From a virus, in the IMG/VR virus record IMGVR_UViG_3300035182_000473, positions 1-20,688 of that record: 20,688 bases of DNA; one strand, written 5' to 3'. The translations under genes were made by a program, and so were the position numbers. Under the pieces are notes generated by a model. The model searched no databases, was not told the DNA's origin, and was given only the letters and a program-made list of their open reading frames with translations. This document shows, piece after piece, positions 10,529 to 16,805 of the stretch; the stretch's first letter is position 1, and each line of letters starts with the position of its first letter.

Positions 10529-11800
10529 CTATTTTGTGTTGGTGTTTTCTACAGCCTGAATGCGTTCACCTATCCATTTCATAACAGGCACAGCCATCGA
10601 GTTACCTAACGCTTTGTAACGCCCAGTGTCAGATGCGCCAGGTATATTTGTGTAACCATCAGGGAACCCTTGCAAGCGTTCGCACTCTGTTGGGGTTAGA
10701 CGGCGCACCTGCATTGTTTGAAGAACTGCATTGCCTCCCTGATTACATGATGGGTTTAATCCGCTTGTATCTATAGTTTTTGAAACATCCACTTCATTAC
10801 ACCCACTTATCGGGTTTCTTGATTTCATAGAATTGCTGCTTAGACTGTCAAACGCAAAAGCAACAGCGTGACTATGCGCTGCCTGCAATGTGTATGCAGG
10901 GTCACTTTCAAACCCAATACCCATTCCAGTACCCTTACCCATAGCTTCGTGGCGTGTTGCTATCTGCGTATTTATTGGATAGCAAATCGCGTGCTGGTCT
11001 GTCTTAGTCAGCGTGTAACTAACACCAGATTCATCATATCCATTACCATTCCCCCCATTTTCAGGTTGCCGCCCTATTGTGTTACCTGCTAGAGCAAAAA
11101 CATGGTAATCGCCAGAAAGCGCCTCTTGGTTTCCCAACCATTGCTTTGTACCGCAGTTAGCTAACAGGGTTCCAAATACTGGTTTTCCGCTGCATGTTCC
11201 AACGCCTTTTTCAATATTGGCGGCAGCGACTTCCCCCGCTTCTCGGCTCGGCGGAGTATTCCCGCGCAGGCTTTCGGTGTCAAAAAGTACCGCTGCTGCA
11301 CTTCTCCAGTCTCCAAAACACCCGACAACGAACACACGGCGGCGGCGTTGGGCCACTCCGAAGTATTGAGCGTCAAGAACTCTGTAGGCGAACCCATACC
11401 CGAGTTCGCCCAACATCCCGAGGAAGGTGCCAAAATCCCTACCTCTGTTACTTGACAGGACACCAGGCACGTTTTCCCATACAAGCCATTTGGGATTAAG
11501 TCTGCGAGCAAGCGAACCGAACTCAAGCATGAGGTTGCCACGCGGATCATCCAATCCTGCTCGAAGTCCTGCAACTGAAAAAGATTGGCATGGTGTTCCT
11601 CCGACAAGAAGCTCAATTGGGTCATAATCATCTTTCTTTATTGTTGTAAAATCACCGTGTAGCTTGGTATTTGGATAGTGGTGCGCCAATACTCTACGTG
11701 GGAAGGTTTCTATTTCAGACAGAAATGACGCTTTCCATCCTAACGACTCCCATGCCACGCTTGCAGCTTCTATGCCTGAGCAAACTGAGCCGTATCTCAT
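10529..11800 (-). CDS. dcm: C5-cytosine DNA methyltransferase, Dcm type (first)
   Basis: 423 residues. Motif I 'SVCSGIEAASVAWESLGW' (4-22), motif IV with the catalytic Cys at 71 in GGTPCQSFSVAG, motif VI 'WENVPGVLSS' (108-117), motif VIII QRRRR (151-155), and C-terminal motifs IX-X 'RRLTPTECERLQGFPDGY' and 'ALGNSMAVPVMKWIG'. Residues about 190-370, the target-recognition part, contain repeated short modules of the type 'SYTLTKTDQHAI', 'AYTLQAAHSHAV', 'SKTIDTSG'. The complete motif set predicts an active enzyme. No restriction endonuclease is nearby, so protection against host restriction is the likely role. It starts in an ATGA overlap with a ninB remnant and has a strong antisense-like shadow frame but no other gene inside. 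Confidence 0.95.
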   Translation of the reverse strand: MRYGSVCSGIEAASVAWESLGWKASFLSEIETFPRRVLAHHYPNTKLHGDFTTIKKDDYDPIELLVGGTPCQSFSVAGLRAGLDDPRGNLMLEFGSLARRLNPKWLVWENVPGVLSSNRGRDFGTFLGMLGELGYGFAYRVLDAQYFGVAQRRRRVFVVGCFGDWRSAAAVLFDTESLRGNTPPSREAGEVAAANIEKGVGTCSGKPVFGTLLANCGTKQWLGNQEALSGDYHVFALAGNTIGRQPENGGNGNGYDESGVSYTLTKTDQHAICYPINTQIATRHEAMGKGTGMGIGFESDPAYTLQAAHSHAVAFAFDSLSSNSMKSRNPISGCNEVDVSKTIDTSGLNPSCNQGGNAVLQTMQVRRLTPTECERLQGFPDGYTNIPGASDTGRYKALGNSMAVPVMKWIGERIQAVENTNTK

Positions 11801-11868: not shown

Positions 11869-12223
11869 CGTCTTGCTCATCCTTGCGTCTGTTATTGTAC
11901 GCCATGGGATTAGCTGTCCGTGAATCAGCCGTTTTTATCCACGCCAGCACGTCCTTTTTCTTGATTATTTTTAACGTACTAATGTCCAGCTTGCGCAACC
12001 CGTCAATAGACGCGCCATTCAAATCAAATATACTGCCAGTTATAACATCGACATATAACCGCTTCCCGTCCAGCACCGAATCAGCACAAACTCGTCCGAT
12101 TTGTGCGTATTGCACAATCTGCATTCTGCCTATGCTATTTGGTGCGCTGGCCATTAGTCTGATAGCATTAGCTGTTAGGGCATAGCAATCGGATGATATG
12201 ATCTTAATATTAGACGTTGTCAT
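11861..12223 (-). CDS. Unknown phage protein between the two cytosine methyltransferases
   Basis: 120 residues from the ATG at 12223, which overlaps the stop of the second methyltransferase (ATGA). A GTG at 12238 would extend it inside that gene and is less likely. Residues 1-60 hold 'IKIISSDCYALTANAIRLMA' and 'MQIVQYAQIGRVCADSVLDG'; the middle 'LNGASIDGLRKLDISTLKII' looks like a small helical DNA- or protein-binding unit; the C-terminus is very polar (NRRKDEQDDE). I recognise no family. Overlap with genes on both sides suggests it moved or is expressed together with the methyltransferases. A modulator of modification is only a guess. Confidence 0.68.
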   Translation of the reverse strand: MTTSNIKIISSDCYALTANAIRLMASAPNSIGRMQIVQYAQIGRVCADSVLDGKRLYVDVITGSIFDLNGASIDGLRKLDISTLKIIKKKDVLAWIKTADSRTANPMAYNNRRKDEQDDE

Positions 12224-13410
12224 TTTTTTAATCCACACGTTAGTATGTGAGCGATTACATCAACAGTCCAGCCATTGCCAAGCATCTTATACCGCTGCGT
12301 GTTACTTACGCAGTCAGAATATCCGTCTGGCACTGTTTGCAACCTCTCACACTCGACTGGGGTTAGTTTCCGATATTGAAGGTCGGAATAAACTACCACG
12401 TTATCTTTTTGCACCGTGGTTAGAGTATTAGTTTTCCCGTCATGCCTAACCTCCAGCCGTTGCTCTGTTAGTCCTGCCGTTTTCATCTTGTGGTCTTGTC
12501 GCTTGCTATCAACTATATAACGCCCGCGTATTGCTCCGCACAGTAACTTTGGCGTATGCCCTGCCGCACGTAATGTTGGTGCTTTCCCTGTTTCGGCATA
12601 TACCCTACTGCTATAATAATTAACTTGCTTCGTATCTTTAGCATCTGCGGCATGGTGCAACTGTGCATTTGCATCATATCCTCTAGGCTTGCATGGTCGT
12701 AACATAGGTATATACCCAAGTGCATAACCATGAGTTCCAGCGCAGATAGTCGGCGACTTACTATCAACCGCATGTATTGTGTTAGCTTGCGATTTGTACT
12801 CTGGGTTTAATTGATTACCCCCATTATGGTTTGCTGGTGTTGGTGTTATAAAGACATCACTAACTTCGATTTCAAGAATATCAGCAAGAATGATCCCTTT
12901 ATCTTCTGGCTGAGTTACCTCAAAGTTCGTCCAGTAGTAACGCTGGCGGCTCTGTGCTGATACCAGTGCAGAGTTAATTAGCGTCTTGTGTACTGTTCCT
13001 AACGCTTGCTCTGTATGGTGCGTGATGTACTGCTCAAACTCTTTTTTCATCTTGACATTTTCCATCAAGAATTTGGCATTTGGGTTATGCACCATCACAT
13101 TCTTAATAATGTCTAGGAACGTCCAGAACAATGCCCCACGTGGGTCTTTGTCGCCCAACCCTTTACCAGCTACTGACCAGCTTTGGCATGGGAAACCTCC
13201 AGTTACTATGTCAATGCTTTTCCAGTCTAGATTCCAGTTTCCCCACCCCAATATACTGCCCAATTGTATCGTGTCTGGGTAATTTTTTTGCGTCACTGTG
13301 ATAGCGTATTTATCAATCTCGGCAGCGTAGTATATATCAGGTTTTACGCCAATACGATTCAGCGCAATCTGACCTGATGACATTCCATCAAAGCATGATA
13401 GTACATTCAT
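12220..13410 (-). CDS. C5-cytosine DNA methyltransferase (second, different subfamily)
   Basis: 396 residues. Motif I 'NVLSCFDGMSSGQIALNRIG' (2-21), catalytic Cys 75 in GGFPCQSWSVAG, motif VI 'FLMENVKM' (114-121), motif VIII 'SAQSRQRYYW' (151-160), C-terminal 'RKLTPVECERLQTVPDGY' and 'MLGNGWTVDVIAHIL'. Between residues about 200 and 345 are repeated short modules 'SPTICAGTHGY', 'APTLRAAGHTPK' and 'TNTLTTVQKDN', likely target-recognition units. It differs clearly from the first methyltransferase in motif I and motif VIII, so it was acquired separately rather than by duplication. It starts in an ATGA overlap with the HNH-AP2 gene. The function is probably anti-restriction; the recognised site is unknown. 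Confidence 0.95.
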   Translation of the reverse strand: MNVLSCFDGMSSGQIALNRIGVKPDIYYAAEIDKYAITVTQKNYPDTIQLGSILGWGNWNLDWKSIDIVTGGFPCQSWSVAGKGLGDKDPRGALFWTFLDIIKNVMVHNPNAKFLMENVKMKKEFEQYITHHTEQALGTVHKTLINSALVSAQSRQRYYWTNFEVTQPEDKGIILADILEIEVSDVFITPTPANHNGGNQLNPEYKSQANTIHAVDSKSPTICAGTHGYALGYIPMLRPCKPRGYDANAQLHHAADAKDTKQVNYYSSRVYAETGKAPTLRAAGHTPKLLCGAIRGRYIVDSKRQDHKMKTAGLTEQRLEVRHDGKTNTLTTVQKDNVVVYSDLQYRKLTPVECERLQTVPDGYSDCVSNTQRYKMLGNGWTVDVIAHILTCGLKK

Positions 13411-13904
13411 AATATGACTCCTCTATTGAAAAACTCGCCATGCGCTTTGCTTGCAAATTCCTGATAAGCAAGTGATGCTTCTTCGGCTGTATCGAATCTT
13501 CCAAGATTATATTTCTTACTATTTACCTTGCATTGTGCCACCCACTTTTTTCGATCTTTCTGCCAACTAACACCCTTAAACCCTGATTTATTATCTGATT
13601 GCATACCTCGATTACATAGATTTTCACTATTCGTCGCCAAACGTAAATTGCAAATCCTATTGTCTGACCTATTAGAGTTGATGTGATCTATGAATTTGGG
13701 TGGAAATGTTCCGTGGACGTAGAACCATGCCAAACGATGCGCTCGGTATCTGACATGCTTAATTACAATTTGAATATAACCGTCCTTATCAAATGAGCAA
13801 GCCACGCTTCCAGATTTGGCTTTACCACGAGAAACAAGCCACGTAAAAACACCTGTGGACGGGCAGTAATGTAGAAGTGATTTTAATTCTGATTGCGTAA
13901 GCAT
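13407..13904 (-). CDS. HNH homing-type endonuclease with AP2 domain
   Basis: 165 residues from the ATG at 13904, which has an AAGGA six bases upstream; the open frame continues upstream to 13985 but without a good ribosome site. The N-terminal part has 'HYCPSTGVFTWL' and 'RAHRLAWFYVHGTFPPKFIDHINSN' (landmarks H56, RLAW, D73-H74-N76), then 'NRICNLRLAT', the HNH_3 fold. Residues 108-158 form an AP2 DNA-binding domain ('GFKGVSWQKDRKKWVAQ', 'LGRFDTAEEASLAYQEFA'). Such proteins are selfish mobile nucleases that cut cognate DNA lacking their gene. It is free-standing, with no visible intron ends, and overlaps the second methyltransferase start by four bases. Confidence 0.92.
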   Translation of the reverse strand: MLTQSELKSLLHYCPSTGVFTWLVSRGKAKSGSVACSFDKDGYIQIVIKHVRYRAHRLAWFYVHGTFPPKFIDHINSNRSDNRICNLRLATNSENLCNRGMQSDNKSGFKGVSWQKDRKKWVAQCKVNSKKYNLGRFDTAEEASLAYQEFASKAHGEFFNRGVIL

Positions 13905-13996
13905 TGATTTTCCTTGGCTGTGAGTGAGTGTGTCGGCTTGCTGCAGCGGCCAAGCGCCTTGCAATTTACGCATTCTCCAATGCAACCGACATGCAA
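13883..13996 (-). CDS. Possible small Cys-rich protein before the HNH gene
   Basis: A 37-codon frame that would start at TTG (13996) and end 22 bases inside the HNH gene. It encodes 'GCIGECVNCKALGRC' with a C-x3-C-x2-C-x5-C spacing, which looks like a zinc-binding knuckle rather than random sequence. There is no ATG; a weak AGG lies about seven bases before the TTG. It could be a real small gene, the 3' remnant of a gene broken when the HNH gene arrived, or chance. Confidence 0.3.
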   Translation of the reverse strand: MHVGCIGECVNCKALGRCSKPTHSLTAKENQCLRNQN

Positions 13997-14810: not shown

Positions 14811-14964
14811 TTTTACGACCTTTCCAAATTTTTATAACCATGCGCTCGACCTCATCGGAATACTTATCACCGTGTAATTTTTTCCAGTAATCCAAACACT
14901 CACGGCGGTACTCCTTGGTTTTGCTCGAGATTAAAAACGCTGCGGCTTCTTGTGCTGTTAGTAT
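14803..14964 (-). CDS. Small protein with a non-ATG (AUA) start or frameshift entry
   Basis: 53 codons read from ATA at 14964-14962 to TGA at 14805-14803. The peptide (ILTAQEAAAFLIS, then SKTKEYRRECLDYWKKLHG, ending IWKGRKNG) has the helical, charged composition of a genuine small phage protein. There is no ATG, GTG or TTG near its N-terminus. An AAGGAG lies seven bases before the ATA, and the ATA overlaps the upstream stop as TAATA, where other junctions in this operon have TAATG. A -1 shift on the seven A's in CTA AAA AAA GGA just upstream would also enter this frame. The end overlaps the zinc-protein start by 8 bases. Its function is unknown. Confidence 0.6.
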   Translation of the reverse strand: MLTAQEAAAFLISSKTKEYRRECLDYWKKLHGDKYSDEVERMVIKIWKGRKNG

Positions 14965-15656
14965 TATGCAGCTCCTTTTTTTAGCATTTTTTTAATCTCA
15001 TCCAGACGTTTGTTAGCGCTCTCTCGATCTAATGCGGTTGCAGCCTTATCGGTTAACAGTCCGTTGTTTGATACCAGTGATAAAACAGCGCCTATCCGCT
15101 CTTGGCTTGCTTCAGGCGGAGGTAACAAGCCACGCGCATAACTCGCGCTTAATCGACCAACTTGAACCGCTGATTCAATAACCAATCTTCTACGGTCAAT
15201 ATCCCACCCCTCAGAAATGCTCCAAACAGCAGGCTTGCGATTTTTTCGAGATTCTGAACACAACCTATCATAAGCATTTCGGAATGCCATCCTTGCCCCT
15301 GTACGGTCGTTTATCTCAAGCAATGGCCTTGCTATCCAGAACGCCTGGGATTCTTCCTCAGTCCAAACAATAGTTTCAGCCTCATCATTTGCAAGCATTG
15401 AATTAGCCCACGCTTCGTCTGAGCTTAGTCTTCCATCGGCAGATTGAATGCGATCTACAACATCAGCAACGGTTAACCGTCTGCATTCGCGCCGAACCAG
15501 CGTAAGCGCTTGCAAAACAGATTCTTCGCCGTAGCAGCTCAAGTCATCGGACATCATCAGCAAACCTGCTGGACTTATCTGCTGTCCCATTGCTTCGGCT
15601 GTTACTCCTAAAGCTCGGATAATAGTTTCTGTACTCTTGCTAGTTTCTGTACTCAT
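14964..15656 (-). CDS. Phage replication protein in the lambda-P position
   Basis: 230 residues. N-terminal pattern 'TAEAMGQQISPAGLLMMSDDLSCYGEESVLQALTLVRRECRRLTVADVVDRI' gives the landmarks QxISPxxxxxMSDDL, ALxxxRRECRRLTVADV and 'DEAWANSML'; then 'ETIVWTEEESQAFW', 'AARMAFRNAYDRL'-like 'GARMAFRNAYDRL' and 'GRLSASYARGLLPPP'. Proteins of this type are commonly found just downstream of the O-like initiator and may load the helicase or assist the replisome; the biochemical role is not proven. It overlaps the initiator stop by ATGA. It ends DEIKKMLKKGAA, where two A7 runs lie close together. Confidence 0.6.
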   Translation of the reverse strand: MSTETSKSTETIIRALGVTAEAMGQQISPAGLLMMSDDLSCYGEESVLQALTLVRRECRRLTVADVVDRIQSADGRLSSDEAWANSMLANDEAETIVWTEEESQAFWIARPLLEINDRTGARMAFRNAYDRLCSESRKNRKPAVWSISEGWDIDRRRLVIESAVQVGRLSASYARGLLPPPEASQERIGAVLSLVSNNGLLTDKAATALDRESANKRLDEIKKMLKKGAA

Positions 15657-16564
15657 GCAAGTTTCCTTTCTGCCGACATGGATAAAGCTTGTTCGATAGC
15701 GTTAAAATTAGATTGTGTTGAATCTATCTGACGCGCTGTTGCTGTTGTCATGCTGCGTCCAGTAGCCCACTCGGTGCGCATTTTTTCAGCATCAGCAAGC
15801 AGATTCCCAAACTGGTGACCTCTGCCAACGTAAAACGATGAGTTACTTGCAACAAAGAATCTTGCGATACTTGGGGCTTCTGCTTGAGGAACTCGCTTGC
15901 AAAAATCAACAACCTGTTTACTAACTTTGGCATTGCGAACTGGATCGATTCCGTAGCGTTCAAAATATCCTGTTGCGTATGCCTCCCAAGTTTCTCTGCA
16001 AACCTGTTTTTCATTGTCAGATAAAACTTTCTTTTTGGTAGCAACTGCGATAGCGGTTGCAGGTGTGTTTTGCAAATGGTCTGTTAATGGTCTGTTACTG
16101 GTCTGTTTATGGTCTGTTACTTGCCCTTCCCCGTTTTGGGGTAGGTTAGCACCCCGTTTCGGGGTAGGTTTACACCCCATTTCGGGGTAGGTTAATTCCC
16201 ATTTCGGGGTAGGTTTATTTGTTTTAACCTCTCCTGTTTTTGGGTGGGTTAATGCACCCTGTTTTGGGGTAGGTTTTCTAACATTTGTTGGCTCATCAAA
16301 AATCACATAAACATTAGAAGTTGACCTACCTCCATCACCTGATCTTGTGATCCATCCAAACAATTCCAGTGCGCGAGTGTCGTCAGAAATCTTACTCTCG
16401 GCCACCCCTATTAATTCAGTTAATTGTGAACGTTTAGGGTGAGCCATTCCTGTGTCTGAGCTTGCAAACAAGCGCAAAGCACAAAGCACTTTGAATTGCC
16501 TACCTGTGAGCCTTTCGTCTGATAGCATTGCCTCTGAAACCATGGCGAATCTTCGTTTGCTCAT
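15653..16564 (-). CDS. Phage replication initiator, lambda-O-like
   Basis: 303 residues. Residues 1-90 form a winged-helix domain ('FAMVSEAMLSDERLTGRQFKVL', landmarks RLTGRQFKVLCAL, 'KRSQLTELIGVAESKISDDTRAL' with ISDDTRALxxxGWI, then 'GGRSTSNVYVIF') of the replication-initiator HTH type. Residues 91-170 are a low-complexity linker encoded by the iteron arrays, with repeating peptides KPTPKxG, LTHPKTG and LTYPEMG. Residues about 180-290 form the helical C-terminal part ('RETWEAYATGYFERYG', 'FVASNSSFYVGRGHQFGNLLADAEKMRTEW' in part), probably for partner contact. It should bind the iterons in its own gene and open the origin, as lambda O does. The ATG at 16564 has AAGG upstream. Confidence 0.88.
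   Translation of the reverse strand: MSKRRFAMVSEAMLSDERLTGRQFKVLCALRLFASSDTGMAHPKRSQLTELIGVAESKISDDTRALELFGWITRSGDGGRSTSNVYVIFDEPTNVRKPTPKQGALTHPKTGEVKTNKPTPKWELTYPEMGCKPTPKRGANLPQNGEGQVTDHKQTSNRPLTDHLQNTPATAIAVATKKKVLSDNEKQVCRETWEAYATGYFERYGIDPVRNAKVSKQVVDFCKRVPQAEAPSIARFFVASNSSFYVGRGHQFGNLLADAEKMRTEWATGRSMTTATARQIDSTQSNFNAIEQALSMSAERKLA
16076..16119. repeat. Four 11-bp tandem repeats beside the iterons
   Basis: There are four adjacent copies of ATGGTCTGTTA: 16076-16086, 16087-16097, 16098-16108 (two differences) and 16109-16119. Eleven bases is about one helical turn and is not a multiple of three, so the copies change reading frame inside the initiator. They lie 9 bp from the first iteron and could be a second protein-binding array or part of the unwinding region of the origin. 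Confidence 0.88.
16129..16275. other. Iteron array, probable phage replication origin
   Basis: Six 19-bp direct repeats with plus-strand form CCCCGTTTCGGGGTAGGTT lie at 16129-16147, 16152-16170, 16175-16193, 16197-16215, 16232-16250 and 16257-16275. Start-to-start spacings are 23, 23, 22, 35 and 25 bp. The left part of each is itself a small inverted repeat (CCCC-N5-GGGG in the best copies). The repeats fall in all three reading frames of the initiator, so selection acts on DNA rather than protein. Lambda has four iterons inside O; this is the same design with more copies. Confidence 0.87.
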
Positions 16565-16598: not shown

Positions 16599-16805
16599 TT
16601 ATTGTTGATGCTGTTGGCATGTTTCAATTTCAGCCATGACAGCTTTATAAAGCTTTGGTTTTCTGTATCTTATCAACTCCAGGCAGTCTGAAGGAATTGA
16701 GTTACGTCGCCACTGGCTTATCGCGGCGGCAGACTTATTCATCATTTTAGCCGTGGCGTTTGTTCCCCCAATTGCGTCAATAATTTTGTTAGCCAGTAAA
16801 TCCAT
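16599..16805 (-). CDS. Small Cro-like HTH regulator
   Basis: 68 residues. A compact helix-turn-helix at about residues 5-46 ('NKIIDAIGGTNATAKMMNKS' and 'AAISQWRRNSIPSDCLELI') resembles the YdaS/Cro type: 'GGTNATAKMM' is the first helix region and 'AAISQWRR' the recognition helix. It is the first gene of the minus-strand operon, directly beside the divergent control region, so it most likely binds the dyads there and represses early transcription. The ATG at 16805 has a strong AAGGA six bases upstream. It is followed after 34 bases by the initiator. No opposing CI-type repressor is present in the window. Confidence 0.83.
   Translation of the reverse strand: MDLLANKIIDAIGGTNATAKMMNKSAAAISQWRRNSIPSDCLELIRYRKPKLYKAVMAEIETCQQHQQ

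Follow-up and report, generated by a model that had tools for sequence, protein, structure and literature searches.

Positions 16076–16275 of the phage DNA analysed here, a 20,688-nt stretch that we call the window, probably (at roughly 83% by our estimate) form a replication origin of the lambda type, embedded in the linker-coding part of the phage's own O-like initiator gene. The winged helix of the initiator is predicted to bind long palindromic iterons, and an adjoining array of short repeats likely unwinds. This reading draws on sequence, structure prediction and analogy with characterized origins. A preliminary description of the window had proposed an origin of lambda design inside the initiator gene, and the proposal gains comparative support from the O-like family of the protein, the linker position of the repeats, constraint at the DNA level and recurrence in diverse phages. 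The inferred steps, from binding and unwinding through strand capture and helicase loading to origin activity, are as follows. Winged-helix dimers of the initiator would bind the six palindromic iterons, as suggested by their dyad symmetry and the precedent of lambda O, and the bent nucleoprotein complex would melt the adjoining short array, whose strands are strongly unlike in base content. One exposed strand would then be held by the initiator or a partner, probably sequence-specifically, before the host helicase is brought in by the C-terminal domain together with the protein encoded at 14964–15656. Counted against the origin reading are the linear, fragmentary nature of the 20.7-kb window, the only moderate AT-richness of the short array, an in-frame bias of repeat periods among relatives and the weak likeness to lambda O.

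In profile searches the initiator belongs with the O-like proteins of PHROG (phrog_391, 'replication initiation O-like'; E=5.5e-19 over residues 16–293, most of the protein) and not with the lambda O family of Pfam, Phage_rep_O, which gave no match at E up to 1. The same phrog_391 also takes in lambda O (E=2.7e-39), which matches phrog_678 too. A Pfam HTH_36 match (E=2.2e-4) lies under the gathering cut-off, and a PDB sequence search returned nothing useful. The nearest solved folds to the winged helix include the N-domains of staphylococcal plasmid RepA (4pql, 4pt7 and 5kbj, with Z of 9.2, 8.9 and 8.3); this likeness is one of N-domain fold only, with no Pfam match to RepA_N at E up to 1. The winged helix of lambda O aligns with that of the window collinearly but weakly (P=0.0011, probability 21%). 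The C-terminal domain matches phrog_11527 (E=3.2e-25) in addition to phrog_391, and a fold search of the PDB gave no convincing match despite its high-confidence prediction; it may function in replisome recruitment. The gene that follows stands in the position of lambda P and is a candidate helicase loader; in one relative (L005), a 61–62% identical homologue of its product likewise comes after the initiator. The resulting gene order is cro-like, O-like, P-position. An upstream promoter scan found three candidates against 2.3 expected, no excess over shuffles.

Table 1. Features of the putative origin, its host gene and the neighboring genes
Feature	Position in window	Strand	Details
Cro-like repressor gene, upstream of initiator	16599..16805	-	P22_Cro E=2.1e-4 (below cut-off); phrog_8008 DNA binding protein E=2.5e-9
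O-like replication initiator gene, 303 aa	15653..16564	-	phrog_391; weak Pfam HTH_36
Winged-helix DNA-binding domain (predicted), residues about 6-95	16280..16549	-	AlphaFold2 pLDDT mostly above 90
Disordered-linker DNA, residues 97-168, holds both arrays	16061..16276	-	pLDDT below 50, residues 98-167
Iteron 1	16256..16275	-	19/20 matches to AACCTACCCCRAAACGGGGT
Iteron 2 (weak)	16231..16250	-	15/20 matches to AACCTACCCCRAAACGGGGT
Iteron 3	16196..16215	-	17/20 matches to AACCTACCCCRAAACGGGGT
Iteron 4	16174..16193	-	19/20 matches to AACCTACCCCRAAACGGGGT
Iteron 5	16151..16170	-	20/20 matches to AACCTACCCCRAAACGGGGT
Iteron 6 (adjoins short array)	16128..16147	-	19/20 matches to AACCTACCCCRAAACGGGGT
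Short repeat 1	16109..16118	-	AACAGACCAT
Short repeat 2	16098..16107	-	AACAGACCAG
Short repeat 3	16087..16096	-	AACAGACCAT
Short repeat 4	16076..16085	-	AACAGACCAT
Helical C-terminal domain (predicted), residues about 181-270	15755..16024	-	pLDDT about 96
Next gene, 230 aa, overlaps initiator 3' end	14964..15656	-	phrog_6028 (unknown function) E=4.3e-61

The iterons are six copies of a 20-bp palindromic unit, AACCTACCCCRAAACGGGGT, at 16128–16275 on the coding (minus) strand of the initiator gene, with start-to-start spacings from 16128 upward of 23, 23, 22, 35 and 25 bp. Five are strong and retain the greater part of the dyad CCCC-RAAAY-GGGG; the weak copy does not, and its score was also reached by chance, as the best among 50 shuffled versions of the whole window. 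In gene order the iterons fall in frames 1, 2, 1, 2, 1 and 0, so that all three frames are used and the DNA is read as KPTPKxG, LT(H/Y)P(K/E)(T/M)G or NLPQNG. The preliminary description, which had reported six iterons across three frames inside the initiator gene, is thus borne out, including its peptides. Its further claim that the repeat is conserved as DNA also finds support: when the protein was held fixed and codons were redrawn from local usage in 2000 trials, none reproduced the repeats (0/2000; summed iteron score 109 observed, null mean 87, maximum 97), and the silent sites of the linker are conserved, as described below. No second comparable array was found elsewhere in the 20.7-kb window. 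That six units depart from the lambda design, as was also suggested, does not stand, and we dropped the idea that the number is unusual, since the Stx phages P27 and 933W carry six intragenic iterons (PMC7466680).

Directly 3' of the iterons on the coding strand lies a second array, overlooked in the preliminary description, of four 11-bp repeats of AACAGACCA (16076–16118). Both arrays are encoded within the linker that AlphaFold2 predicts to be disordered (residues 98–167), the iterons corresponding to residues 97–146 and the short array to residues 149–163. The 9-bp core of the short array is matched at 36 of 36 positions, against a mean of 27 and a maximum of 34 under the codon null, and its frame order of 2, 1, 0, 2 again uses all three frames. 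Its GC content of 0.38 makes it only moderately AT-rich, and it stands at the 90th percentile of instability within its gene, the least stable stretch of which is elsewhere; its AT skew is +0.52, compared with +0.19 for the gene. The array is a low-stability, strand-asymmetric region adjoining the iterons, as found in lambda-type origins.

In lambda, dimer-bound iterons are accompanied by a strand-asymmetric AT-rich region that opens (PMC5043065). Lambda and the window share palindromic iterons placed midway along the initiator gene at spacings of about 20–24 bp, G-tracks flanking an A-tract (CCCTCAAAACGAGGG in lambda, CCCCAAAACGGGG in the window), a strand-asymmetric low-stability region on the same side after the iterons and the gene order of a cro-like gene, O and the P position; with P27 and 933W the window shares the number of iterons. 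Unlike in lambda, the C-terminal domain and the downstream gene belong to other families, the Pfam lambda O family is without a match, and the short region is a regular 11-bp AACAGACCA repeat whereas that of lambda is an A/T-rich tract. A similar arrangement is observed in staphylococcal RepA_N plasmids such as pSK41, which combine a winged-helix N-domain, origin boxes within the stretch of rep that codes for the linker, a dispensable linker and a separate C-domain; in the pPR9 chimera, the N-domain is of the HTH_36 type (pfam13730), is related to a phage replication protein and has been exchanged along with the origin region (PMC5703833). The window likewise places its arrays in DNA coding for the linker (residues 97–163) between winged helix and C-domain, RepA N-domains are among its nearest solved folds, and its initiator weakly matches HTH_36, as in pPR9. 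Among the differences, the RepA_N family consists of Gram-positive plasmids, there are four Rep boxes in pSK41, and no sequence similarity was found. In plasmid RK2, TrfA specifically binds one strand of four 13-mers in the DNA unwinding element, all four of which are required (PMC4081077). RK2 oriV and the window both set iterons beside short repeats, those of RK2 lying in the unwinding element; RK2 is unlike the window in being a plasmid origin with T-rich 13-mers (consensus TAAACnTTnTTTT) and an initiator of another family.

Relatives of the initiator repeat the pairing: long palindromic iterons accompanied, where helix stability is at a minimum, by a strand-asymmetric array of short period. 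The phage collection held no DNA-level similarity to the window, and a full-protein scan of IMG/VR found one near relative only. Relatives were gathered through an alignment of the C-terminal domain, which gave eighty loci, plus phage records and ten loci in bacterial genomes, the latter including Yersinia similis, Aromatoleum, Polaromonas and Pseudomonas segetis; a single C-domain query of the bacterial genomes had returned none. Among 57 non-redundant genes, with repeat significance set at p of at most 0.01 by codon shuffles, long-period repeats reach significance in 39, in every case within the linker, and 36 genes show significant short-period repeats, which fall in the linker in 33. The long array precedes the short one in 51 of the 57. 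The short arrays of the family lie at a median 96th percentile of instability within their own genes (in 41 of 47, the 80th or higher), with a GC content of 0.44 versus 0.55 and an absolute AT skew of 0.45 versus 0.16; the stability minimum and strand asymmetry fit an unwinding element. Repeat periods that keep the reading frame are in excess (20 of the 36 long periods and 23 of the 29 short ones), which suggests that some protein constraint or in-frame duplication also contributes.

Several relatives vary this layout. T-rich linker arrays on the coding strand, of CTGATTCC type, are found in twelve relatives with another N-domain (L028, L033, L035, L037, L041, L042, L051, L057, L071, L075, L096 and L102), in the same array place and with strand asymmetry opposite to that of the window. 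One locus (L078) has the same C-domain and a 12-bp short array, and its N-terminal part reads as HNH nuclease-like rather than as a winged helix. Another homologue (L094) carries about a dozen perfect 6-bp GGGACA repeats in its linker.

The long iterons differ from phage to phage: CCCCGAAACGGGG in the window, GTAGCCGATTCGGCTAC in L018, L027, L029 and L054, GGGGTAGGTTCACAG in Pavtok-like phages, ACCCCCGCAG in Pseudomonas phages and CCCTCAAAACGAGGG in lambda. Iteron similarity follows the N-domain when the C-domain is held fixed (partial r 0.30, 0/300 permutations). Between the window and L018, where modules appear swapped, similarity is 0.69 for the C-domain, 0.14 for the N-domain, 0.03 for the iterons and 0.65 for the short array. 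Across the family, short-array similarity has a partial r of 0.30 with the winged helix and 0.09 with the C-domain. A role for the C-domain in reading the short array was set aside: similarity goes with the N-domain, and the motif is found with several C-domain families.

When IMG/VR was scanned without regard to homology, three copies of AACAGACCA occurred in eight stretches, all eight in initiator genes and directly behind palindromic repeats of other sequences, with differing C-domains. Two copies were found in 46 stretches; of 39 distinct proteins scanned, at least 20 match phrog_391, and the motif is read as EQT, TDH/Q or NRP, and thus in three frames. The reversed control pattern gave 22 stretches, with initiator families in 2 of 16 proteins (Fisher p=0.014 on phrog_391 alone). 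The reversed motif, ACCAGACAA, itself has two occurrences within initiator genes whose N-domain is of another type (L190 and L198), perhaps as a further short-array variant. The two-copy iteron pattern CCCCRAAAYGGGG occurs in 26 stretches, mostly in winged-helix replication genes and in several frames, with some elsewhere. At L109 7363–7432, the CCCCAAAACGGGG iteron pair has two tandem matches within an ORF whose product looks integrase-like and not like an initiator.

The same short array behind unrelated iterons and before unrelated C-domains may point to swappable modules for specificity and melting. We tentatively suggest, at somewhat less than even odds, that AACAGACCA at 10–12-bp spacing is a portable unwinding or strand-capture code common to many phage initiators, with specificity (the iterons) and melting (the short array) carried by separate, exchangeable modules of coding sequence. 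The intragenic iteron origin is a known design, and the fresh part is the short motif common to phages with unrelated iterons. A literature search for this two-part layout in other phages returned almost nothing, which is not evidence of novelty because subscription journals lay mostly outside its scope. If the AACAGACCA array is recognized as single-stranded DNA, strand-specific repeat capture of the RK2 kind would extend to phages, and how lambda-type initiators hold the melted strand would become testable.

Alternatively, the iterons may indeed form the origin while the short array serves to bind or load some other factor, for instance host primase or a DNA-binding protein of the host. CTG, the trinucleotide of E. 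coli primase, lies on the opposite strand of each AACAGACCA copy, and such a role would suit both the sharing of the motif among different iterons and C-domains and its moderate AT-richness. We regard this as unlikely, though with appreciable weight, because the short arrays across the family, although unlike in sequence, are strongly strand-asymmetric and lie at stability minima, some of them without CTG, and because their similarity goes with the winged helix and not with the C-domain. Improbable is a mainly regulatory role, in which the iterons would bind the initiator for autorepression or copy control and replication would start elsewhere. Iteron-bound initiators of iteron plasmids are known to regulate as well as initiate, but the sites here lie mid-gene rather than at a promoter, beside a low-stability array in the layout of lambda, and the window offers no other such array.

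For the embedded origin, the substitution pattern of the linker is informative. Between the window and L002, whose initiator is 92% identical, dS is 0.086 in the linker and 0.333 and 0.227 in its flanks, whereas dN is 0.076 in the linker and 0.028 and 0.026 in the flanks (Fisher p=0.001 for the contrast of synonymous and nonsynonymous changes); the short-array part differs by one change. Nine independent pairs of relatives give a linker pS of 0.167 versus 0.336 in the rest of the gene and a pN of 0.083 versus 0.060 (Fisher p=1.4e-8), p-values here being approximate because substitutions inside one pair are not fully independent; two of the nine pairs, with another N-domain type, exhibit little effect. 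Silent sites that are held while the linker protein drifts are what an embedded DNA element predicts, and the preliminary description had proposed this very comparison, expecting repeats to be kept as linker amino acids change; the outcome agrees with that expectation. That the repeats merely reflect a low-complexity protein linker spread by replication slippage, their DNA being without function, is highly improbable: the linker is predicted to be disordered and in-frame periods are over-represented in the family, but both arrays run in mixed frames, redrawn codons for the same protein never give the repeats, linker silent sites are more rather than less conserved, and the DNA of the short motif turns up again in unrelated linkers, read in three frames.

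The combination offers a rule for locating phage origins from sequence alone: a winged-helix initiator linker whose DNA holds palindromic long-period repeats and then a short-period strand-asymmetric array, with conserved silent sites.

Elsewhere in the window, two related DNA methyltransferase genes (phrog_116; 10529–11800 and 12220–13410, minus strand) lie in one replication region, adjoined by an HNH endonuclease gene (13407–13985). Wholly within the first of these, a cytosine methyltransferase gene, and on the same strand in another frame, a 156-aa ORF (11161–11631, minus strand) matches phrog_16143 (E=2e-7) and is possibly an overlapping gene.
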